A DNA stretch of 64,000 bases from Magnetococcales bacterium (GTDB lineage: Bacteria > Pseudomonadota > Magnetococcia > Magnetococcales > JADFWU01), in contig JADFWU010000013.1 in NCBI GenBank assembly GCA_015234045.1, forward strand, positions 16,685-80,684. Reading direction: 5' to 3'. This document shows, one piece after another, positions 10,868 through 62,269 of the stretch; position 1 is the stretch's first letter, and each line of letters starts with the position of its first letter. The notes below the pieces were generated by a model that made no database searches, was not told the origin of the DNA, and was given only the letters and a program-made list of their open reading frames with translations. Both the position numbers and the translations under genes were made by a program.

Positions 10868-10889
10868 AAAAAAAGCCCCTCAACCGGGC
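10868..10889 (-). terminator. Rho-independent terminator overlapping the stop codon of the ATPase-TPR gene
   Basis: Read on the minus strand: a short GCCC/GGGC stem followed by seven T residues. The stem includes the TGA stop of the upstream gene. The stem is only 4-5 pairs, so strength is uncertain. Confidence 0.5.
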
Positions 10890-13800
10890 ATTTCAAACGG
10901 CGGCTCCTCTTTATTCCAAAACAGAGGCAAATCTTTGGGATCACCACAGCCATAGCTTTTGCCTTCTATGAAGGGCTTGTAGCGGTCCAGCATTTTCTGG
11001 GGTTTGGGGACATCTTTGAAGGTGTCCCGTTTTTCCTGAGGTAGCGTGCAGAGTGCGGTGACCAATTGACGAAGAGGCTCTCTCAAATCAGAGCGGCAGC
11101 CTGCCAGGAGATAACCATCATTTATAATATCCAAACGCTCTTCGTGATTGGATACTCTATTAACTATCGACTGAAAATCAGTGGCCTCAGTTTGACCTGA
11201 AGAGTTGGATATCTTAATTAACCAATCAATAAACTGCACAGCAACATCTTTGGTTTTTCTTCTTAGCCATGTTTCAGACAACTCAACTATTTCATCAAAT
11301 TGTTTTTCAAGAGCTAATGTCAATATAGTTTGATTAACAAACTCAGAAACCCCTTTCCCTTGCTGCATGATTAAAAGAGACTTCTCAAAATGCTCTCTTG
11401 CCAAATCTGTTTCATTGAGATGTTGATATAATGAGCCTAAATTTCTATGTATATAAGCCCTACCTGCTTCATCCTCAGAAACAGTTAACCCCTTCTTAAA
11501 AACAGACTTGGCTATGCTGAAATAGCCATTACGATAATAAGATAATAATCCGAGACCATTCCATGCATGCGCAAACTTTGGATCCAGATCTATCGCTTTT
11601 CGATACGATGACTCCGAGTCTTCATAACGATCCATATAATTTTGATACAAATTGCCCAACTCTTGCCATGGATGCGCTAATTTTGGATCCAGTTCTATCG
11701 CTTTTCGGTATGATGACTCCGAGTCTTCATAACGCTCCATATGATTTTGATACAAATTACCCAATCCATGCCATGGAGGCGCATACTTTGGATCCAGTTC
11801 TATCGCTTTTCGGTACGATGACTCCGATTCTTCATAACGCTCCATATGATATTGATACAAATTGCCCAATTCATTCCATGAAATCGCAACCTTTGGCTCC
11901 AGTTCTATCGCTTTTCGATACGATGACTCCGAGTCTTCATAACGCCCCATGTTATATTGATACAAATTGCCTAATTCATACCATGAACCTGCAAACTTTG
12001 AATCCAGATCTATCGCTTTTCGATACGATGACTCTGAGTCTTCATAACGCCCCATGTTATATTGATACAAATTGCCCAATCCATACCATGGATCTGCAAA
12101 CTTTGAATCCCGTTCTATTGCTTTATTATAATACAACTCAGCGTTTTTATAATTCTCCATACAATTATGATATAAATCTCCCAAAGCGGCACATACCCGA
12201 GCATCTTCTGGATCAATATCAGCAGCTTTTTTATAACATCTCTCAGCTTCAGGACATTCACCCTGTTCACCAAAAGAATCCCCAACTCGTCCCCAAATAC
12301 TTAAAACATCTTCTTCCACCGATTCAACACCTTGATAAATCAACTCTCTCAGTTCAGTATTCTTTCCAGCTTCCTGCCAAAGCTCATACCAATATTGCCC
12401 CCACTGCTCCCAAGCTGGGAACGGATGATTGCCTTTTTCGAAACCTTTTAACAGAGCAGGAACTATTGAATTATCTTCATTGAGAACAATGTGTTCTACC
12501 CACTCTTTTTGATGCTTAAAATAGTGGGAAATCAAATTAGGAATAAATTCACCATCCAGCATAGAAAGCTTTTGTCGTTCCTCATTAAACACCCCAACCA
12601 ACTCATTGATTTGAGCAGCACTCAACGTGTCAAAATCGTCCAACAATTGCTTCTTATTTTCCCAAGACATGGACGTAAAGCCGGATAACCAGTCCAAAAA
12701 TTCATCATGGCTGACCTTAACGCCCTCCGGCATTGGTTTAGAGCCAATGAGTTCTTCTCTGACAGAATCAATTGTGCGCCCTTCTTCTGGCATCAGGTCC
12801 AAAGGCCAATACCAGTGAGGCAAACGCAACAGAGGAATAAAATCCTCGCTCCGATGTTTTTTTGGCAATGAATCATCGAGAAGAAAGTGTTCTCTTTGCT
12901 GATTATCTGATTTTTTACTTTTCTGACTATCTGGTTTTCTATCCGCAGAGATACCGGTAGTGCGGGAGATTTTTTCTTGGATTTCCCGCTCCTGTTTTTC
13001 CAGAAGCTGCCCATCAATGTCTTCGGCTATATTGATTACAGATTGTACATAGGGGTGCTCACGATTTTTCAAAGCCAGAGGTAGATCTGAAACAGCGAGA
13101 TGTGGCGTATAGGGCAGCGTATATATTACAGGAACGACCTCATCCTGTTCACCTTCAGAAACATGCAGGCGTTCATCTTTCAACAACTGTTTACCCTGAT
13201 TCAATGCCTGCATGGCAAAAGGATCATCATGGATATGGGCTGGAATCGGTGAGAACACCACTTTCAGGTCTTTTGCATAACACCCCAAAGGCACGCGCTC
13301 TTTTCGAAGTGCTTTAAGGGTTAAACTAAGACCTGTTAAATTCTGCTCATTAAGTCCAGATATCAAAACGATTTCATCAGCTAAATAGCCCAGCGTCATA
13401 TTCAACAGTTCTGGAAATCCTGTACGGCAATCAATCAGAACATAGTCGAATTTTTTCTTACAATCAGGGAGGACAAACTGGGAAAAATCTTCTCTCAATT
13501 TGAATGAAAAGCCCCTTAACGCCTTGTCAAAAGGATTTTTCGACGCGCCGTTCGAACTGGGAATAGTTTGAATTTCACCATCAATGATAGTTGGCGACTG
13601 AAAACGTACCTTACCTGCGCCCATGGCCATAATTCGACCATTCCGCCCCCAAACCATCCCCTTTGGAGGAAACATTTCCCGAAACAGTCTACCGGCTGGA
13701 TAGTAGCCAAAATGATCGGGATTCTCTTTATGTTTTTCGTAGAAAATTGTCAGCAGATCACTAAATCCTCGACCTTCAAGAGAAGGATCACTCCAGGGTG

Positions 13801-13960
13801 AATTTTTCAGCATGGGAGAATAGGTCAGCCCAGGAGCCGCCAGATCCATATCCACCAAGCCAATCACTTTACCCAAAGAAGCCCAGTAGGTAGCCAGATT
13901 CATCATCAAAGAGGTTCTGCCAACACCACCTTTAAATGAGAAGAACGCTATAATTTTCAT
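10880..13960 (-). CDS. ParA/MinD-like ATPase fused to a TPR array (accessory block, paralogue 2)
   Basis: 1026 residues. Residues 1-320 are a deviant-Walker ATPase: FSFKGGVGRTSL near residue 7, Walker A' VDMDLAAPGL near 37, and switch II-like VLIDCRTGFP near 175. The P-loop lysine is replaced by arginine (GRT, not GKT). Residues about 370-540 are an unrecognised linker domain. About 560-870 hold eight or nine TPR units of 35 residues (WYGLGNLYQYNMGRYEDSES type), encoded by nearly identical 105-base repeats. The C-terminal 150 residues are conserved with the paralogue at 16.0-19.4 kb and end in SYGCGDPKD...MPG. Its ATG overlaps the stop of the preceding gene (ATGA). Cytosolic; function unknown. 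This architecture recalls conflict/defence NTPases, by inference only. Confidence 0.85.
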   Translation of the reverse strand: MKIIAFFSFKGGVGRTSLMMNLATYWASLGKVIGLVDMDLAAPGLTYSPMLKNSPWSDPSLEGRGFSDLLTIFYEKHKENPDHFGYYPAGRLFREMFPPKGMVWGRNGRIMAMGAGKVRFQSPTIIDGEIQTIPSSNGASKNPFDKALRGFSFKLREDFSQFVLPDCKKKFDYVLIDCRTGFPELLNMTLGYLADEIVLISGLNEQNLTGLSLTLKALRKERVPLGCYAKDLKVVFSPIPAHIHDDPFAMQALNQGKQLLKDERLHVSEGEQDEVVPVIYTLPYTPHLAVSDLPLALKNREHPYVQSVINIAEDIDGQLLEKQEREIQEKISRTTGISADRKPDSQKSKKSDNQQREHFLLDDSLPKKHRSEDFIPLLRLPHWYWPLDLMPEEGRTIDSVREELIGSKPMPEGVKVSHDEFLDWLSGFTSMSWENKKQLLDDFDTLSAAQINELVGVFNEERQKLSMLDGEFIPNLISHYFKHQKEWVEHIVLNEDNSIVPALLKGFEKGNHPFPAWEQWGQYWYELWQEAGKNTELRELIYQGVESVEEDVLSIWGRVGDSFGEQGECPEAERCYKKAADIDPEDARVCAALGDLYHNCMENYKNAELYYNKAIERDSKFADPWYGLGNLYQYNMGRYEDSESSYRKAIDLDSKFAGSWYELGNLYQYNMGRYEDSESSYRKAIELEPKVAISWNELGNLYQYHMERYEESESSYRKAIELDPKYAPPWHGLGNLYQNHMERYEDSESSYRKAIELDPKLAHPWQELGNLYQNYMDRYEDSESSYRKAIDLDPKFAHAWNGLGLLSYYRNGYFSIAKSVFKKGLTVSEDEAGRAYIHRNLGSLYQHLNETDLAREHFEKSLLIMQQGKGVSEFVNQTILTLALEKQFDEIVELSETWLRRKTKDVAVQFIDWLIKISNSSGQTEATDFQSIVNRVSNHEERLDIINDGYLLAGCRSDLREPLRQLVTALCTLPQEKRDTFKDVPKPQKMLDRYKPFIEGKSYGCGDPKDLPLFWNKEEPPFEMPG
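11560..12190 (-). repeat. Tandem 105-base repeats coding for TPR units
   Basis: The block GATGACTCCGAGTCTTCATA recurs with small changes every 105 bases (about 11604, 11709, 11814, 11919, 12024). Each unit codes for one 35-residue TPR. The nucleotide similarity is higher than protein conservation would need, which suggests recent duplication or gene conversion. Confidence 0.8.
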
Positions 13961-26035: not shown

Positions 26036-26193
26036 GTGATTTCGATCCAAAACGTGACACTAAATCACAACCTGAGTGGAAGCTCTGGTGATATTTTTGC
26101 GCCGCTTTATGATATGCAAGGCAGATCATCAGAGCAAAAACATCACCAGGGATGGCACGGCTGACTGTTCAAATTTTAGACGAAACCATTATA
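26031..26193 (+). repeat. Inverted-repeat (MITE-like) element, family A, copy 2
   Basis: 163 bases. The ends are TTATAGTGATTTCG and CGAAACCATTATA, an imperfect inverted repeat. The internal hairpin arms are at 26081-26100 and 26134-26153. It lies between convergent genes, and its right end provides the TAA stop (26189-26191) of the HD-GYP gene. Confidence 0.85.
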
Positions 26194-27280
26194 CCCTATC
26201 AAACAACTTCGGCTGCGGCATAAAGTCGCGTGGAGTCAGCCCCCAACGCGTGGATGACTCCCGCCCCAGGATCTTGTAACCATGGAGGCCCTCTTCCTTA
26301 CAAACCAACAGGTCAACTATTTCTGGCTCGACTTTCTGTTTTATATTCGTGTCATACACCACCTTGACCACAGGATGCAGCACGCTTTCGGTGGTATTGG
26401 TGATCACCACAGCCAACAAGCCATTCTCCAGTTTAACCAATGATCCAGTTGGATATATGCCTACGCATTGGACAAACTTATGGAACAAGTCAACATTGAA
26501 ATCCCGTTCACTCCACTGCAACATGCGCTGAAGCGCCACATGTGGATCGTTTCCTTTGTGATAACACCGATCCGATGTGATGGCATCATAGACATCAACA
26601 ATAGCCGCCATCTGACCGAACAGGCTGATTTCATCGCCTTTCAGCTTGTTCATATAACCGGTGCCATTGTAGCGCTCGTGGTGCTCTGCACAGATACTGA
26701 TGGCGGTTTGGGAAATGCCAGGGCTGCGTGACAAAATTTCAACGCCGCGCGGCACATGCCCTTTCATGATGCCATACTCTTCGTCAGTCAGTTTACCTTC
26801 CTTATTAAGCACTTCCGGCGGTGTCCGCATTTTGCCGATATCATGCAACATACCACCTATACCGACTTCTACCAGCTGATCAGAATCCATGCCCAAAGTC
26901 TGATGAAACGACATCAAAAACACACCAACATTCACCGAATGCATAAAGGTGTATTCATCATGTTGCTTCAACTGCGCCAGAGTAAGCAGCGCATCCCGAT
27001 TGGTAAACATGGACTCAGCCATGACCTTTACCGTTTCACGAATAGGCCCAACGTTGATCTGCTGTCCCATCCGCACATCTTCGAACATGCTGCCGATGAT
27101 CTTACGGGCTCTGGCTTTGGTTTCCGTGGCATGAGGAAGCTCTTCAGCAAGATTATCCACCTGCGCCATACCCTGGTGGATGGCTTCGTTACTACCACCA
27201 CGAGCTGGTGCCGGGTCCAAATCATCCATCTGAGCACGAAGCAGTTCCAGTGCATCTTCTTCCGTAGCGTGTTTTGACAT
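26189..27280 (-). CDS. HD-GYP domain protein with degenerate GYP motif
   Basis: 363 residues. The HD-GYP domain (about 105-290) has the metal site HSVNVGVF, MLHDIGKMRTP and HHERYNGTGYMNKLKG. In active c-di-GMP phosphodiesterases the last motif is GYP; here it is GYM, so activity may be reduced or altered. The N-terminus lacks the DUF3391 domain found in the paralogue at 27.6-28.8 kb. The last 60 residues resemble that paralogue (RWGLTPRDFMPQPKLFD). The stop codon is formed by the end of a family A repeat element. Direct copies of that element flank the gene on both sides. Confidence 0.88.
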   Translation of the reverse strand: MSKHATEEDALELLRAQMDDLDPAPARGGSNEAIHQGMAQVDNLAEELPHATETKARARKIIGSMFEDVRMGQQINVGPIRETVKVMAESMFTNRDALLTLAQLKQHDEYTFMHSVNVGVFLMSFHQTLGMDSDQLVEVGIGGMLHDIGKMRTPPEVLNKEGKLTDEEYGIMKGHVPRGVEILSRSPGISQTAISICAEHHERYNGTGYMNKLKGDEISLFGQMAAIVDVYDAITSDRCYHKGNDPHVALQRMLQWSERDFNVDLFHKFVQCVGIYPTGSLVKLENGLLAVVITNTTESVLHPVVKVVYDTNIKQKVEPEIVDLLVCKEEGLHGYKILGRESSTRWGLTPRDFMPQPKLFDRV

Positions 27281-27340
27281 GATGATCTATTCCTGGCTTA
27301 TCATGAGTGGAGAAGAGCTCTCACAGCATATTACTGATTT

Positions 27341-27511
27341 TTACAGTTATTTCGATCAGAAATTAGACAATGAATCACAACCTGAGTGGAGCCATGGTGA
27401 TATTTTTGCACCGCTTTTGATATGAGAAACAGATCATCAGAGCAAAAATATCACCATGGCTGAAATGGCTGAAACGGCTGAATGTTCAAATTTTAGACGA
27501 AACACCGATAC
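27341..27511 (+). repeat. Inverted-repeat (MITE-like) element, family A, copy 3
   Basis: 171 bases between the two HD-GYP genes. The internal hairpin is perfect over 20 pairs (27390-27409 with 27442-27461). It reads CCATGG where copies 1 and 2 read CCTGG/CCAGG, and both arms have changed together. The same outer blocks (CACAACCTGAGTGGA, TTCAAATTTTAGACGAAA) are present. Confidence 0.85.
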
Positions 27512-27575
27512 ATCAGAATATCTTATTCGAACAGCGCTTCCGTTTCGAGACAATTATCACAACATAGTGACCATA

Positions 27576-28817
27576 CTACTGAAAAAGTTCAGGCTTGGGC
27601 ATGAAAGCCTTGGGATCGATTTTCCAGCGAGCCGGCGACTCTTCATGGCGAATCTTATATCCACTCCCCTTTTCCCGATACTCCAGAAGATCCATAATCT
27701 CCGGTGTCAGTGGACGATTTTTAGCCGTATCATAGATCACATTAACGATGGGATGAAGCAGGCTCTCTTGATTGGACTGAATCACCACACCCATCAGACC
27801 ATTTTCCATCACCACCAGCGTACCGATGGGATAAATACCCACACAGCGAACAAAACTGTGATAGAGGTTCAGATCAAAATGGTGTTTACTCCACTCCAAC
27901 ATCTTCCGCAACGCCACATGAGGCGGCATCCCTTTGTGATAACAGCGATCTGAAGTGATGGCATCATAGACATCCACCAAGGCAGACATCTGACCAAACA
28001 AACTGATCTGATCCCCTTTCAATTTATGCGGATAACCACTGCCATCATATCGTTCATGATGCTGACCCGCCACATCCAACGCCTCTTGTGACACGCCTTC
28101 TGTCTCGGACAGAATGTCATGACTGAACTCTACATGCTTTCGCATGATCATAAACTCATCATCACTCAGTTTACCGGGTTTGTTGAGCACTTCCTGAGGC
28201 GTTCTCATCTTGCCGATATCATGCAGAAGCGCCCCCACTCCCACATCAATGATGGTCTCTTCATCCATCTGAAGACCGCGACAAAAGGACATCAGAAACA
28301 CACCGACATTGACCGAATGCAAGAAGGTGTACTCATCCCGTTGTTTGAGTTGGCCCAAACTGAGCATGGCGTTTTGGTTGCTGAACATGGATTCCACCAT
28401 GCCTTCAACAACGTTACGCACCGGACCGATGGCGACCTGTTTACCCAGCCTGGCATCTTCCAAGACATTGCCAACCAGTTTCCTGGCATGTTTTTTCACC
28501 TCAGCAGCGCGGGTGAGCTCCTTTTCCATGGATGAAAATTTTGCCGGCGGCGGCGGTGCGGGCGCGTCACCCAACTCCATGATCTGGGCCGCAAGATCTG
28601 CATGCACCTCTTGGGCTGTGGGCGCATTCGGCACATCCAACCCTTTGGCTGTATCAATATAGAGCTCTTTTAAACCCTGTTGGCGAATATAGGAGATCTG
28701 AGTACTTTTTTTGAGCAACAACTGTTTGGGAAAGGGATTATCATCACGCCAAGCGCAATTGAAATCATGGATGAACATCCCCGGTTTGAGGGCTGAGACA
28801 GGGACTTTTTTGATCAC
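27576..28817 (-). CDS. HD-GYP cyclic-di-GMP phosphodiesterase with DUF3391 domain
   Basis: 413 residues. The N-terminal 65 residues (KKVPVSALKPGMFIHDFNCAW) are a DUF3391 domain. The HD-GYP domain follows (about 155-340): HSVNVGVF, LLHDIGKMRTPQE and HHERYDGSGYPHKLKGD, all with canonical residues, so it should cleave c-di-GMP. No membrane segment. The C-terminal tail RWKIDPKAFMPKPELF is shared with the paralogue downstream. It is the first of two tandem HD-GYP genes, which are separated by repeat element copy 3. The paralogue is probably a duplicate that lost the N-terminal domain. Confidence 0.92.
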   Translation of the reverse strand: MIKKVPVSALKPGMFIHDFNCAWRDDNPFPKQLLLKKSTQISYIRQQGLKELYIDTAKGLDVPNAPTAQEVHADLAAQIMELGDAPAPPPPAKFSSMEKELTRAAEVKKHARKLVGNVLEDARLGKQVAIGPVRNVVEGMVESMFSNQNAMLSLGQLKQRDEYTFLHSVNVGVFLMSFCRGLQMDEETIIDVGVGALLHDIGKMRTPQEVLNKPGKLSDDEFMIMRKHVEFSHDILSETEGVSQEALDVAGQHHERYDGSGYPHKLKGDQISLFGQMSALVDVYDAITSDRCYHKGMPPHVALRKMLEWSKHHFDLNLYHSFVRCVGIYPIGTLVVMENGLMGVVIQSNQESLLHPIVNVIYDTAKNRPLTPEIMDLLEYREKGSGYKIRHEESPARWKIDPKAFMPKPELFQ

Positions 28818-34463: not shown

Positions 34464-35627
34464 TTGGCCGTGTTCCATCGCTTTTCACTTACCCTTCTGA
34501 TCTCTTTCCTGATCACCATTCCGGCCTACGCCTCGGATCTGGTCCGCTGTCGCGATGCGTCAGGCGTAACGGTATTCCGCAATGCGCCCTGTGAAAACGG
34601 TGAGAATCTGGAACATATCTATCGTGAACTGGACTGGAACGATGAAATCCCGTTTGAAAACAGCAATCGGGCAGGTCAATACTGGATTAAAGGCAAACTC
34701 AACGGCAATCAACCGATCCAGTTTCTTATCGACACCGGTGCTAACGTTGTTTTAGTACCCAAAGATATTTTTGACAAACTCAAAGAAGCAGGCACCGTAA
34801 CACAATCGGATCTAAAAGGATTTGGCTACGCCACCGTTGCTGATGGCTCGCGCTCACGCCGACAAATTTTCACCCTACGCACGCTTCAAGTGGGCAAACA
34901 TACCCTGAAAAACATCCGGGCCATTGTTGGCAATCCGGGCGTACCTGCACTGCTTGGCACCTCCGTACTTGAACGGTTGGGCAACTGGCGTATTGATCAC
35001 CGCAATCGACGTCTTGTATTGAAGAACCGGCCCGATCCATCTGGCACCATGCGCCAAATGGCACGGGTCAGCTATCTGGCCAATGATCTGCCCGACAAAC
35101 GTAAAAAAAGTGTCAAAACGGCTTTGGATGTCAGTGATCACCTGTTGATGGGACAGGTTTTGGAAGAGTCTGGCCAGCACGAACAAGCAGCGCTGGCCTA
35201 TCGTGAAGCCCTGAGAAACAATCCGTTGTCTGACACCGCAGCCCTGAGACTGGCTCAATTACTGATCCGCTACGGCGAACCAGCCACCGACCTTCAAGAA
35301 GCCCTTCAGTGGGTGCAACGCTTTGAAAACGATACAAATCCAGCGCGCCTGGATATTTTGGGTCAGGTCTATTTTCATATGGGTTGGATGAACCGGGCTG
35401 TAACCGTTTTGGAAAAAGCGGTCGCACATGGCACAGGTATTGGCGTGATTCACTATCACCTGGCCCAGGCCTATCTGAAAAAGGGGTTCAAAGAAAAAGG
35501 CCACACCCAGCTGGAGTTATCTCTCAGCGGCGGCGGCATCTTTATCGAACGCGCTCACGCTGAGGCCCTGTATGAAAAATTGGGTGGCCCTACCCTGATC
35601 AAGAATGCCTCCATTGCGTTCCCCTGA
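34464..35627 (+). CDS. Retropepsin-like aspartic protease with TPR domain, exosortase cluster
   Basis: 387 residues. An N-terminal signal peptide (LTLLISFLITIPAYASDL) precedes a retropepsin-like domain: active-site FLIDTGANVVLVP near residue 88, the flap region ATVADGSRSRRQ, and the closing LLGTSVLERLGNWRID near 165. These match the DTGA clan of bacterial single-domain proteases. Residues 215-375 are TPRs (LLMGQVLEESGQHEQAALAYREAL). The start is TTG 34464 or GTG 34470, after AAGG. It overlaps the exosortase gene by 23 bases. Periplasmic; its substrate may be a component of the polysaccharide or PEP-CTERM machinery (inference). Confidence 0.85.
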   Translation: MAVFHRFSLTLLISFLITIPAYASDLVRCRDASGVTVFRNAPCENGENLEHIYRELDWNDEIPFENSNRAGQYWIKGKLNGNQPIQFLIDTGANVVLVPKDIFDKLKEAGTVTQSDLKGFGYATVADGSRSRRQIFTLRTLQVGKHTLKNIRAIVGNPGVPALLGTSVLERLGNWRIDHRNRRLVLKNRPDPSGTMRQMARVSYLANDLPDKRKKSVKTALDVSDHLLMGQVLEESGQHEQAALAYREALRNNPLSDTAALRLAQLLIRYGEPATDLQEALQWVQRFENDTNPARLDILGQVYFHMGWMNRAVTVLEKAVAHGTGIGVIHYHLAQAYLKKGFKEKGHTQLELSLSGGGIFIERAHAEALYEKLGGPTLIKNASIAFP

Positions 35628-37098
35628 GAAAACAATCTGGCTGGTTGCTTTTTTTCTGATACTGTCGGGCGGATATGCTGAACTGGTTGAACTGGGTCAA
35701 CAGTGGCTGACACGGGATACCTTTGGATATGGACTAGTGCTCGGCCCGGTTGCCGTTTGGCTCATAGCAACCACATGGCCTGCCTTGAATCGTTGCGGAT
35801 TTGACGCGCCACGCACCGGTATCGGCGTACTCCTATTTTCCGGCCTACTGGTCATCCTGGGCCGCGAAAGCGCCACAGCGGCACTGGTTCAATATGGACT
35901 GATGGGACAACTCGCCGGGTTGGCACTGCTCCGCTGGGGTTGGTGCGGTTTATCACTGTTATTGCGCCCTTTTTTACTTTTTATCCTGACTATTCCGCCA
36001 CCGTACCTGCTTGAAACTGGATTAAATCACTTACTGTTGAATGCATCCACAGAGTTGGGTGTTATTCTGATTCGCCTGATTGATCTGCCGGTTCATCTCT
36101 CCGGCGACATCCTTGATTTAGGTGCATTTCAACTTCGAGTGGTTGAAGCGTGTGGTGGTCTGAACAGCTTTTTTCCACTGACCGCTGTCGCCCTGCTACT
36201 CACCCAATTTACCAATAACCGACTTGCTCAGGTGGGCATTCTGTTTTCAGCACTGCCTGTCACAGTACTGACCAATGGGGGACGACTGGCACTTACCGCC
36301 GCTTTATTCAACCTGTCTGACAACGAAACCGTGAGGACAGTCAGTCATGACACAGGTGGCTGGCTCTCTCTGGGCATGGGCATTGTCATATTGGTTGCTG
36401 AAACGCATATTATTAATAAATTTTGGCCGGTTCGACGCAGTTTGCGTAACAGTGCCAGCAAAAAAAATCGCCACTCCTTTGGTACGCGACATGCGGGCGT
36501 GGCCTTACTGCTGATAACTGTTTTTGTGGGTATGTCTCTGACGCTGCGACAACAGACGATTAGAACGCCATCCCGACAGTCTTTAGCCACACTGCCACAA
36601 AAACTGTCCGTCTGGTGGGGCGAAGATGTTCCAGTGGACAGGATTATGATGGCAAAGCTCAACCCTGATGAATGGATCAATCGGCGCTATCTCTCCGATC
36701 AAGGAGATATCATTCATCTGTATGGCATCTATGCTTCTGATTTAAGACAGGCAACGGCTGTTCATTCGCCCCGCCACTGCTTACCGGCAGGCGGCTGGTC
36801 CATTATTGAGCACCAGCAAAAACAGTTGGGCATCGGTGCAGGTTTAACGGTCAACCGAACGATTGTTCAACAAGGAATGCATCGCCAATTGGTTTATTAC
36901 TGGTTTATCGGTCGTGGTCGAAGCATCGCTGGTGATATCATCATGAAGTGGTCTCTTTTCCAGGATGTACTGTTGCGCGGTCGTGCCGAAGGCGGATTGA
37001 TCCGTATCATTACCGATGCAAATGATCAAGCCGATGATCTCATTTTGGATTTTATTGGGCACCTGGAACCCACACTGTCTAACCATTTCCCCAATTAA
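35605..37098 (+). CDS. Exosortase fused to an EpsI-type domain
   Basis: Transpeptidase-like membrane enzyme that processes PEP-CTERM proteins during exopolysaccharide-linked sorting. 497 residues. Residues 10-275 form about eight membrane helices with the catalytic triad region: Cys in RVVEACGGLNSFFPLTA (near 194), Arg in NGGRLALTA (near 231) and His in VSHDTGGW (near 250). After a further helix at 295-312, residues 315-497 are a periplasmic EpsI-type domain with HSPRHCLPAGGW. No PEP-CTERM target protein was recognised in the window. Subfamily (XrtA, XrtD or other) not decided. Coupled with the retropepsin gene upstream. Confidence 0.88.
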   Translation: MPPLRSPEKTIWLVAFFLILSGGYAELVELGQQWLTRDTFGYGLVLGPVAVWLIATTWPALNRCGFDAPRTGIGVLLFSGLLVILGRESATAALVQYGLMGQLAGLALLRWGWCGLSLLLRPFLLFILTIPPPYLLETGLNHLLLNASTELGVILIRLIDLPVHLSGDILDLGAFQLRVVEACGGLNSFFPLTAVALLLTQFTNNRLAQVGILFSALPVTVLTNGGRLALTAALFNLSDNETVRTVSHDTGGWLSLGMGIVILVAETHIINKFWPVRRSLRNSASKKNRHSFGTRHAGVALLLITVFVGMSLTLRQQTIRTPSRQSLATLPQKLSVWWGEDVPVDRIMMAKLNPDEWINRRYLSDQGDIIHLYGIYASDLRQATAVHSPRHCLPAGGWSIIEHQQKQLGIGAGLTVNRTIVQQGMHRQLVYYWFIGRGRSIAGDIIMKWSLFQDVLLRGRAEGGLIRIITDANDQADDLILDFIGHLEPTLSNHFPN

Positions 37099-37157: not shown

Positions 37158-37191
37158 CCTGTACTTCTACACCTGTTGAGAGGACGTTGCA

Positions 37192-40125
37192 GTGGCAAAG
37201 GCGTTTGACAAGCCGCGTTATCATCTTGAAGAACGCTCTTTGTTCGATGGATACATCACGCCGCAAAACGGTCCTGAACCTGAGAAGTTTCTTCTCTTGG
37301 TCATCGAAGCCGATGAAACCCACCCATTTCAACTCTCCGTTGGAAAAGGACGCTCCTGTGATGTGGTTATCAATGAACCAGGCATATCAACATTTCACCT
37401 GATTCTGGAAGGACGGCAAACCCAGGTAACTGTGCGGGATGAGCCCGTGCTGGGTGAAGATGCATGGCAGGATGCGCTGCGTGATGCCAAGCGGTCCGGA
37501 AAAGCACCACCTGAAAAAATGCACGCCACCACTGAAGAGCACACCCTCTATCGACTCCGTGTCACACCGCACCCAAAACGTATTGATCCTATCTATGTGG
37601 ATGGCACCCCACTGCAATCCCATTACACCATACGAGGCGGTGAACGGCTTCAAATAGGCAAAACACTGCTTGCCATTCACATAACACCCTATCGTCCCAT
37701 ATGGAAAAAAAATTGGTTCTGGTTTGTACTGATAGCGCTTCTGTGTCTATCTATTGGACTCACCACATGGTATCTGCGCCGCCCTGATGTACGGCGTGAT
37801 CGATTCCTTGACCAAGGCATTTCCGCCTTTCAACAGGATGATATGGAATCCGCGCGACTCGCGTTCCGTAACGCCATACAGCTCGACAACCAGAATATCC
37901 AAGGACATCACTATTTAGGACTGATCGCAGAGAAACAAGGCAATGCCCGTAAAGAATTAATCTACTTCCTGCGCACATTGGAGCTCGACCCGCACCATGT
38001 TTCCGCTCTGGAAAAACTGGCGCGTATCTATTTCCTTGGCGGCAATCTAAAACGCGCCAACGCCTTTGTGGATCGTCTGTTAGCCGTCAGCCCCAACAAT
38101 AGTGAAGGATTGATGGTTCGGGCAGGCATTCTGGCTCGCATGGGTCAGGAAGAACGCGCCAGCCAACTGGCAAAACGCGTCCTGGCCATGGATTCCACCC
38201 AAACCGATGCCCTGATCATCATCTCCCATTATCATGAAAAACAGGGTGAACTGGTTGAAGCACGCCGATTGCTGGAAGAAGGACTGAAAACACGCCCCTT
38301 TGGCATCAGTGGCGCGTTACGACTGCGCTTGGCTGGTCTCTACCGACGTACTGGTGATCCAGAAAAAGCGGAGGAAATGCTCAGGTGGCTTCTGGCGCGC
38401 AAACCTGATGTGCTGCTCTACTGGCGTGCCCTGGCGGCATTTCACGCCTATGAAGGTAATGTTCTCGAAGCTGAACGGGTTCTGCGTGAAGCCATTCGAC
38501 TGCGTCCAAACGATACGCGGCGCTATCTGCTTTTGGCAGATTTTGCCGCGCGTCGATTGGGATTGGAACAGGCTGAACGCATTCTGAAAGGGTTCATCAC
38601 TTCCCATGAATCCGACCCGGTATTCCGGTTTGCCCTGGGCGAATTTTATGAAAAAACGGACCGCCTTGAAGAAGCGCGAAAAGTGTATCTAAAAATAGCA
38701 CTCATGGCTCATGGCATGGAAGCCAGCGACACAGCCCGCCGCAAATTGGCCGCCATGTCCGCCACCGAGAGCAATACCGGAGAAGCGTACCAGCAGATTC
38801 AAGCTGTACTTAAAGAGATGAGAGGCCGTTCACTGGGAAACCAGGATCGAGATCTACCTCTACTAAAAGGCATATCCGCCCTATTGCGCGGGGATGCCGC
38901 TCAGGCAATTCGAGAACTGTCTGTCGCCCTTCGGACCCGACCAGGCATGACCTCCGCACATCGCTTGCTCGCTTGGGCGCACTATCTCAATGGCAGCCCA
39001 AAACAGGCCCGAATTGTACTGACCAAATTGGTAGACATGAGCGATGGCGCCATCCGAGACCGAGTCGCATTGGGTCGTCTCCTGGCCCAAATGGGTAAGT
39101 TCAAAGAGGCTGAAGCCCAATTTCTAGCCGCCTTGGAAGAATCACCGAATCACCCTGCTCTGTTAAAAAGCGTACTCCAAACTCAATTAGCCCGCCGTTT
39201 GTGGCCAGAGGCCAAAGAGACCCTTTATAAACTGAACAACGTGGTAAAAGATCCAGCGGTAAAACAGTATATTTGGGCCATCTACCATCGCGCGCGCGGG
39301 GATGTCGAAGCGACAATTTCAGCCCTTCAGCAGGTGGTTAAACTCAAGCCAAACACCATTAAACCGCTGACAGAATTGGTCCGCGCTCTGGTACTTGACA
39401 ACCAGTTTGGCACAGCAAAAATATGGCTCAAAAAGGTATTGAGAAAACACCCAGATCATGCGCCTGCTCTGAACCTTATGGGAGAGATTCAGCTGGCAGA
39501 AGGCCACTATCAAGAGGCTATTTCCACTTTTGAGCAAGTCACAACTCTGCGTCCAGATTGGGACAAATCCCACATGAATCTCACCAGCGCCTTACTGGCC
39601 AAAGGTGATTTTCAATCCGCTGCTAAAGCACTTTGGCACAGTAGCACAACAGATCCCAAACGGGTCGATCTGGTTCTATTGCTGGCTTCCGCCTATGAAC
39701 GGGCTGAAGATGTGGACCGGGCAATCACGAGCTATGAAGTCGTTCTGGACAGGGACCCTAAAAACGGTGTTGCCGCTAATAATCTGGCGATGCTTCTGGC
39801 CGATCACCGATGGGACACCCAAGATCTGGGTCGTGCGGCCTCATTGATGGCACCGTTCGAAAACACCAACAATCCAGGTGCGTTGGATACTCTGGGTTGG
39901 GTCCGCTATCGACAAGGCCGCCTTTCGTCTGCCAAAGAACTACTGGAAAGAGCACTGAAGTCTGCACCCAATGAACCCGGTATTCAATACCATCTGGGCA
40001 TGGTTTATCGGGATCTGGGTAATGAAGAAAAGGGTCGAGCACTTTTGATCAAAGCGGTATCGTCCCAGGAAACCTTCACAGGCAAGAACGAGGCAAAGAG
40101 GATCATCACCGGCGTAGCACAGTGA
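37192..40125 (+). CDS. FHA-TM-TPR giant protein, PrsT-like, of the exosortase cluster
   Basis: 977 residues. Residues 30-165 are FHA-like: LSVGKGRSCDVVINEPGISTFHLIL, then a second strand set IYVDGTPLQSHYTIRGGERLQIG. A single membrane helix (WFWFVLIALLCLSIGLTTWY, about 182-201) follows. From 210 to the end the protein is an array of some twenty TPRs similar to the PEP-CTERM system TPR lipoprotein PrsT. The FHA part would face the cytosol and the TPR part the periplasm, so a phosphothreonine signal could be passed across the membrane (inference). GTG start at 37192 after GAGAGGA. PrsT proteins are normally lipoproteins; this fusion is unusual. Confidence 0.85.
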   Translation: MAKAFDKPRYHLEERSLFDGYITPQNGPEPEKFLLLVIEADETHPFQLSVGKGRSCDVVINEPGISTFHLILEGRQTQVTVRDEPVLGEDAWQDALRDAKRSGKAPPEKMHATTEEHTLYRLRVTPHPKRIDPIYVDGTPLQSHYTIRGGERLQIGKTLLAIHITPYRPIWKKNWFWFVLIALLCLSIGLTTWYLRRPDVRRDRFLDQGISAFQQDDMESARLAFRNAIQLDNQNIQGHHYLGLIAEKQGNARKELIYFLRTLELDPHHVSALEKLARIYFLGGNLKRANAFVDRLLAVSPNNSEGLMVRAGILARMGQEERASQLAKRVLAMDSTQTDALIIISHYHEKQGELVEARRLLEEGLKTRPFGISGALRLRLAGLYRRTGDPEKAEEMLRWLLARKPDVLLYWRALAAFHAYEGNVLEAERVLREAIRLRPNDTRRYLLLADFAARRLGLEQAERILKGFITSHESDPVFRFALGEFYEKTDRLEEARKVYLKIALMAHGMEASDTARRKLAAMSATESNTGEAYQQIQAVLKEMRGRSLGNQDRDLPLLKGISALLRGDAAQAIRELSVALRTRPGMTSAHRLLAWAHYLNGSPKQARIVLTKLVDMSDGAIRDRVALGRLLAQMGKFKEAEAQFLAALEESPNHPALLKSVLQTQLARRLWPEAKETLYKLNNVVKDPAVKQYIWAIYHRARGDVEATISALQQVVKLKPNTIKPLTELVRALVLDNQFGTAKIWLKKVLRKHPDHAPALNLMGEIQLAEGHYQEAISTFEQVTTLRPDWDKSHMNLTSALLAKGDFQSAAKALWHSSTTDPKRVDLVLLLASAYERAEDVDRAITSYEVVLDRDPKNGVAANNLAMLLADHRWDTQDLGRAASLMAPFENTNNPGALDTLGWVRYRQGRLSSAKELLERALKSAPNEPGIQYHLGMVYRDLGNEEKGRALLIKAVSSQETFTGKNEAKRIITGVAQ

Positions 40126-60628: not shown

Positions 60629-62269
60629 TCAGTTCGAACGCACCATCAAAAATCCTTTGATCATATTGATCGTACCAAAGAACAGCGCGGGCACATACCA
60701 GAAAGGTGAGGCATCTGCGGCAATAAGAATAGCCGCAGCAATGAAGAACGCACTGCCAGCAATGGAGAGCGACTGGCGGTGAAAACCTGATTGGATGTTG
60801 CGTTCCAGATTTTCCAGGAAATCGGGATGCAGGCGCATTTGCATGCGGTCATGAACCAGACGTTCCAGACCGGTGTGCAGCAAACGCGGCAGATAGCCTA
60901 CCGCATGGGTGAGATCCTGAATATCACGATTTAAGGACTTCAACTTACCTTTTGGCCCCATGTACTCCTTCATCCACTCCCGAACCAGAGGTTCGGTAAG
61001 CAACCACATATTCAGCTCGGGATTGATCTCCCGGCCCACACCTTCCAGGGTGAACATGGTTTTTTGCAGAAGCAGCAGCTGAGGTTGAACTTCCATCTGA
61101 AACCGTGCGGTCACTTTGAACATCTGCGCCAACAGACGAGCGATGGAAATCTCTTTCAACGGACGACCAAAGACCGGCTCACCCACCTGTCGGCAAGCCT
61201 CTTCGAACGCTTCCATATCGGTGTCTGAAGGGACATAACCGGCATCCAGGTGAATCTGTGCCACCTTGCGATAGTCACGCAGCAAAAAGCCCTTCATCAT
61301 CTCAGCCAACCAAAGACGGGTTTGAAGGGTGACCTGCCCGACAATACCGAAATCCACAATGGCAATACCGCCATCAGGCTGAACAAAGATGTTACCGGGA
61401 TGCAGATCAGCATGGAAATAACCGTCTCTGAACACCTGATGGAAAAACATGGTGATCAGATTTCGCGCAACCAGCGCAGGGTCAGGACCGTTGCTCTTAT
61501 CACGCAGGTATTCACTCACCGGCGTACCGTCAATCCACTCCAGCGTGAGAATCTGACGACCGGTCTGTGGCCACATCACTTCCGGCACCCAAAGGGTGGC
61601 ATCATCTTCAAAATTCTTATGAAGCTGTTGAGCGTGGGCCGCCTCGACCTGAAAATCCATCTCTTTGCGAATGGTTTCAGCAAACTCATCTACCACACTG
61701 CTGACTTTGAACCGCTTCCACTCTGGCACATATTCATTAACAATCCGCGCCAATGAAAGCAGAATACTGATATCCTTCTCCACCACTGAAGCGGCATTGG
61801 GACGCATTACCTTAACCGCGACCACGCGACCATCCAGACTCAACGCCTTATGTACCTGAGCGATGGAGGCCGAAGCCACCGGCGTTTCGTTGAACTCAGC
61901 ATAAAACGACTCCACAGGACCGCCAAGACTGCTCTGAATGGCTGCACGCACCTCCTCTATGGGGAAAGGCGGCACAGAGTCCTGAAGTTTTTTCATCTCC
62001 TTGCCGATATTTTCCGGCAATGCGTCCATACGTGTGGAAAGCATCTGACCGAATTTTACAAAAGTCGGCCCAAGCTCCTCCAACGCCATACGCAGACGCG
62101 CAGCTTCATCATGTTCCCGCCAGTGGCGCCGAATTGAAGGGCGCAGCCCAATAACCCAGGCCATAAGACGGAACATAAAGAATCGATCAACCAAAGCCGG
62201 GATTCTATGACGAACCAGAATACCCAGGATTTCCGCCAAGCGGAGTAAATTTCTATAGGTGGACAACAT
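60629..62269 (-). CDS. ubiB: UbiB, ABC1-family kinase-like ubiquinone biosynthesis protein
   Basis: 546 residues, exactly the E. coli length. The atypical kinase fold has the KxGQ motif in TFVKFGQMLSTRMDALP near 69, the Ala-rich loop VASASIAQVH near 130, the Lys in VVAVKVMRPN near 150 and the catalytic ADLHPGNIFVQPDGGIAIVDFGI near 286. Two hydrophobic helices at the C-terminus (SLSIAGSAFFIAAAILIAAD and FWYVPALFFGTINMIKGFLM) anchor it in the membrane. It supports the methylation and hydroxylation steps of ubiquinone synthesis. Last gene of ubiE-ubiJ-ubiB. Confidence 0.95.
   Translation of the reverse strand: MLSTYRNLLRLAEILGILVRHRIPALVDRFFMFRLMAWVIGLRPSIRRHWREHDEAARLRMALEELGPTFVKFGQMLSTRMDALPENIGKEMKKLQDSVPPFPIEEVRAAIQSSLGGPVESFYAEFNETPVASASIAQVHKALSLDGRVVAVKVMRPNAASVVEKDISILLSLARIVNEYVPEWKRFKVSSVVDEFAETIRKEMDFQVEAAHAQQLHKNFEDDATLWVPEVMWPQTGRQILTLEWIDGTPVSEYLRDKSNGPDPALVARNLITMFFHQVFRDGYFHADLHPGNIFVQPDGGIAIVDFGIVGQVTLQTRLWLAEMMKGFLLRDYRKVAQIHLDAGYVPSDTDMEAFEEACRQVGEPVFGRPLKEISIARLLAQMFKVTARFQMEVQPQLLLLQKTMFTLEGVGREINPELNMWLLTEPLVREWMKEYMGPKGKLKSLNRDIQDLTHAVGYLPRLLHTGLERLVHDRMQMRLHPDFLENLERNIQSGFHRQSLSIAGSAFFIAAAILIAADASPFWYVPALFFGTINMIKGFLMVRSN

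Follow-up and report, generated by a model that had tools for sequence, protein, structure and literature searches.

The usual TPR partner of an exosortase is a lipoprotein. PrsT was described with a lipoprotein signal (Haft 2006, PMC1569441), and in Aquincola, the one case known, prsT is needed for floc formation, a mutant defect that can be complemented (PMC9850573), which points to a role of the TPR arm in the surface matrix. For comparison we assembled 80 loci with XrtD-like exosortases, most of them from Gammaproteobacteria. At 56 a TPR protein is encoded, and every one of these 56 has a lipoprotein-type N-terminus, defined here by a relaxed pattern of our own rather than by SignalP (a hydrophobic stretch, then Gly/Ala/Ser-Cys). 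In agreement with the published description, the ordinary partner is therefore a lipoprotein, as the initial annotation of the DNA studied here had stated. To our knowledge, the means by which an exosortase system communicates with the cytosol has yet to be established, and little work has addressed what PrsT does, so a protein of the PrsT type that also has a domain in the cytosol would provide a handle on that communication. The second relevant precedent is the FHA fold of PrgH, in which the phosphothreonine residues are poorly conserved; mutating the corresponding positions leaves secretion unaffected, and its authors concluded that phosphothreonine binding is unlikely (PMC3635987).

The locus described here lies in a stretch of 64,000 nucleotides, which we call the window. 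A GTG-initiated gene at 37192..40125 (+ strand) encodes a protein of 977 amino acids, the PrsT-type partner of the adjoining exosortase. A gap of 93 nt separates its start codon from an exosortase-EpsI gene upstream, and GAGAGG (37178..37183, +), which from the letters alone is probably the ribosome-binding site, stands 8 nt before that codon. The ORF consists of an FHA-fold domain (residues 1-167; 37192..37692, +), a single transmembrane helix (residues 175-195; 37714..37776, +) and a PrsT-type TPR solenoid (residues 198-976; 37783..40122, +) of 22 helical hairpins and a C-terminal helix. We regard this layout as confirmed, and likewise that a membrane helix and an FHA fold replace the lipid anchor of the PrsT-like TPR protein. 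Indeed, no ORF at any of the 80 XrtD-like loci gave a match to the FHA model, and the arrangement recurs in three other genomes, which bears out the anchor replacement proposed in the initial annotation. An assembly artefact was ruled out as the source of the architecture, because the layout recurs in those three genomes.

The assignment of the N-terminal part to the FHA fold draws on several kinds of evidence. The first 169 residues score 28.3 bits against Pfam FHA (PF00498, cut-off 20.7), and in the whole-genome scan the protein scores 23.3 bits, also above the cut-off. The match spans only positions 2-37 of the 67 in the profile. The same 169 residues reach 28.8 bits against the YscD cytoplasmic domain (PF16697), below its cut-off of 33.2. 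A profile built from four orthologous N-termini has the solved FHA domain of Dun1 as its top match (E 2.9e-5). Modeled from a four-sequence alignment, residues 1-206 form a beta sandwich followed by one long helix, at a mean pLDDT of only 65. A fold search with this model returned FHA domains nearly throughout its top rows, the best match being modest (Z 8.6 over 96 residues). A long insert, at approximately residues 85-133, separates the early strands from the last ones. Because the Pfam match, the profile matches to solved FHA domains and the fold search agree, we call the fold FHA, and the model suggests that the N-terminal part does fold in the way initially proposed.

The C-terminal part is modeled with greater confidence. 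In a full-length model made from 31 sequences (mean pLDDT 86, the FHA part being of low confidence), residues 198-956 form 44 helices, i.e., 22 TPR hairpins, with pLDDT mostly above 90. A fold search with the solenoid returned other TPR superhelices, among them O-GlcNAc transferase, which give no clue to function. Of the two domain assignments in the initial annotation, FHA is thus recovered by its Pfam profile; PrsT (TIGR02917) is the best NCBIfam family, yet its score of 275.8 bits stays below the equivalog cut-off of 312.2. The membrane helix spans residues 170-196 or 175-195, depending on which of the two models is read. Neither a lipoprotein signal nor a signal peptide is present at the N-terminus; the protein begins with the FHA fold, and the membrane helix comes only at residue ~175. 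Positive charge is greater before the helix than after it in three of the four FHA-bearing orthologues. The window protein is the exception, with three positive residues on the N side and five on the C side, and this counts against the orientation that we prefer. Nonetheless, we favor a topology with the FHA domain inside and the TPR region outside, because there is no N-terminal signal, because three of the four orthologues show the charge bias and because the related TPR regions are those of exported lipoproteins.

The gene directly upstream (35605..37098, +) was identified by profile matches as an XrtD-like exosortase fused to an EpsI domain. Its Cys183, Arg227 and His248 are invariant in a six-sequence alignment. 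Its score against XrtD (TIGR04152) is 302.1 bits, below the cut-off of 400, which the exosortase loci of two related genomes exceed. The exosortase start is overlapped by 23 nt by a further gene (34464..35627, +) encoding a secreted clan AA aspartic protease-like protein with DUF4124 and retropepsin-like domains, followed at the C-terminus by TPRs similar to the final PrsT unit; given the overlap, the two genes are probably co-transcribed. The protease part of this protein is present in 20 of the 48 genomes of the class, and among the loci compared for it only the window's has such a gene beside the exosortase. No polysaccharide genes were found among the neighboring genes tested. The suggested link to extracellular polysaccharide finds no support in these genes; sorting machinery is represented by the adjoining exosortase, a pairing that recurs. 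Elsewhere in the window, a TPR array is encoded at 10880-13960 (-), of which the first ~45 residues match only the start of a ParA-like AAA domain, and two adjoining HD_5 (HD-GYP-like) genes lie at 26189-28817 (-).

A PrsT-type protein is expected to belong to an exosortase system, and besides the exosortase-EpsI gene directly upstream the genome encodes a probable substrate. This is an NF038122 metalloprotease on contig C49 (L052:2032-3165, -), with a CTERM-like tail made up of a short Pro-containing motif (LPDSAG), a hydrophobic stretch and a basic end. It is the only match to PF07589 in its own genome, at 18.8 bits, under the cut-off, and a search of the same genome for VPLPA-CTERM returned nothing at E 1. 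The NF038122 family is also present at the exosortase locus in two of the related genomes, G023 and G017. Small secreted proteins (L052:1322-2035, -; L046:3235-3975, +; L049:1413-1934, +), similar to one another on visual inspection, are encoded near metalloprotease or TPR genes in three genomes and may be a further part of the system; the first of them has no Pfam match.

How far does the FHA-helix form extend? In a set of 48 genomes of the class, all from one order, an exosortase is present in seven. The FHA-helix N-terminus occurs in four of these seven and in none of the 41 others, each time at the exosortase-EpsI locus. A search of the 48 genomes with an FHA-helix profile gave strong matches in exactly four, the remaining 44 yielding none at E 1e-8; as the profile was built from those same four N-termini, only its absence elsewhere is independent evidence. 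The FHA-helix-TPR gene at this locus is complete in two of the related genomes, G023 and G022, and in G017 it breaks off after the first TPRs. The three remaining exosortase genomes differ: G018 has a helix-TPR gene without FHA, the product of the TPR gene at the exosortase-EpsI locus of G009 opens with hydrophobic residues, perhaps a lipoprotein signal, and G001, with a short exosortase, has no TPR partner gene within the 18 kb inspected. In a search with the window protein, the top four full-length matches fall in G023, G022, G018 and G009 (E 6e-56 to 4e-39), and the best match in genomes without an exosortase is far weaker (7e-19). Trees of the exosortases and of the TPR regions placed the window without support. 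The contig of G022 that carries locus L048 (C164) holds a second, long PrsT-like TPR gene without a proper N-terminus, adjoining a short transposase-like ORF on the opposite strand.

Beyond the class, the N-terminal profile found strong matches in the same four genomes only among 398 sampled genomes of the phylum, and the weak matches inspected are other FHA proteins. Wide spread of the fusion, which would have undermined the initial annotation, was thus not found in this sample. A limited literature search yielded no paper joining exosortase with the FHA domain or PEP-CTERM with forkhead. Up to now, a single class has yielded this variant with FHA and helix.

The phosphothreonine site of FHA domains is formed by an Arg, a Ser and an Asn (Arg70, Ser85 and Asn107 in Rad53). 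We read these positions after aligning the four domains with five further FHA sequences. They are occupied by Lys, Ser and an insert in the window protein, by Arg, Ala and an insert in G023, by Gln, Glu and Glu in G022, and by Arg, Ala and Asp in G017. None of the four therefore has the complete set of a phosphothreonine-binding FHA domain. In contrast, Arg, Ser and Asn are all present in the other FHA domain of the window's genome, which is part of a nucleotide cyclase fusion on contig C117. The His of the FHA motif is kept in all four diverged loci and the Ser is lost in three; the window domain keeps both (ISTFH), with Lys in place of Arg. From these residues, the FHA fold of the window protein probably does not read phosphothreonine. 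Phosphothreonine signaling was accordingly rejected as the default reading, the set being incomplete in all four domains, and the link to such signaling made in the initial annotation is not upheld.

On balance we lean toward the view that the protein is a PrsT-type TPR partner of the XrtD-like exosortase, anchored in the inner membrane by its helix, with the FHA fold as a cytosolic docking surface. One helix, in place of a lipid, would hold the TPR protein in the inner membrane beside the exosortase. The FHA fold would then be cytosolic and the 22-hairpin solenoid periplasmic, where it may collect the substrates of the exosortase and partners in the envelope, or pass them on. By analogy with SctD/PrgH, the FHA fold would most likely dock an unmodified cytosolic protein rather than read phosphothreonine. 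Besides the charge distribution around the window's helix, two observations weigh on the other side. The Ser and His retained in the window domain, with Lys for Arg, might allow weak phosphopeptide binding, contrary to a role in docking only. Further, the orthologous FHA-bearing N-termini share just 22-23% identity with that of the window, so that on sequence comparison a single origin of the fusion is not proven.

The same divergence would also suit an FHA domain that has no partner at all and is a mere folded cap or oligomerization module, acquired with a swapped N-terminus; what counts would then be the helix, by which the TPR solenoid stays at the inner membrane. The TPR protein of G018 speaks for this: it has a single helix and no FHA, is encoded beside an exosortase, and scores 345 bits against TIGR02917; because it passes the PrsT cut-off in this state, the FHA domain is dispensable in the family. 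We nevertheless consider a mere cap unlikely, since four loci that have diverged still share the fold and the motif His, a sign of selection for some role.

A cytosolic docking surface is also to be set against a signaling role, in which a partner in the cytosol or membrane is phosphorylated by a Hanks-type kinase and then bound by the FHA domain, a signal that would gate sorting by the exosortase via the TPR arm. The genome does encode two strong Hanks-type kinases (contigs C105 and C29), and around the Ser/His motif, where both residues are kept, the window domain resembles the phospho-binding FHA domain of Dun1. However, the Arg-Ser-Asn set is complete in no orthologue, with Ser lost in three, and neither kinase is near the FHA-helix-TPR locus. 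Both are on other contigs, appear from their sequences to be fused to a formylglycine-enzyme-like domain, and have unrelated neighbors (an RTX-like protein, a TRAP transporter). The 64-kb window itself contains no Hanks-type kinase, as initially observed; the one weak match (60629-62269) is an ABC1/UbiB protein. Kinase-dependent gating is thus quite improbable, and we doubt even more that the transmembrane FHA-TPR protein passes a cytosolic phosphorylation signal to the exosortase and so places surface sorting under Ser/Thr kinase control. In G023, an APH-type phosphotransferase, by family not a protein kinase, lies ~4 kb from the exosortase.

That the protein has no functional tie to the exosortase and adjoins it incidentally is highly improbable: the window locus does lie outside any polysaccharide cluster, and the likely substrate gene is on a different contig, but the pairing is found in all four genomes with the FHA form, in two others of the class whose TPR protein lacks FHA, and at 56 loci elsewhere.

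Several described systems share parts of this design. GltG of the Myxococcus gliding machinery combines an FHA domain at its N-terminus with a predicted transmembrane domain (PMC3169522), but ends in a TonB domain and has neither a TPR array nor an exosortase. SctD/YscD/PrgH is alike in having a cytosolic FHA fold with poorly conserved phosphothreonine residues, one membrane helix and a large periplasmic part (PMC3635987). The periplasmic part differs, being TPR in the window protein and composed of ring-building domains in SctD, and the window protein scores 19.9 bits against SctD (TIGR02500), below the cut-off of 86. With XrtD (TIGR04152) loci the window shares an exosortase-EpsI fusion and an adjoining TPR gene, in the same order and with the same exosortase type, although its exosortase reaches 302 against 400 bits and its TPR partner is of the FHA-helix form where theirs is a lipoprotein. 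Finally, PrsT (TIGR02917) has in common with the window protein the long TPR solenoid, the gene adjoining the exosortase and the C-terminal unit. At 276 bits against the required 312.2, the window protein departs from it in carrying one helix and a presumably cytosolic FHA domain where PrsT has a lipoprotein signal. The lipid anchor of PrsT is thus replaceable, which is relevant to the position that the TPR arm has to take.
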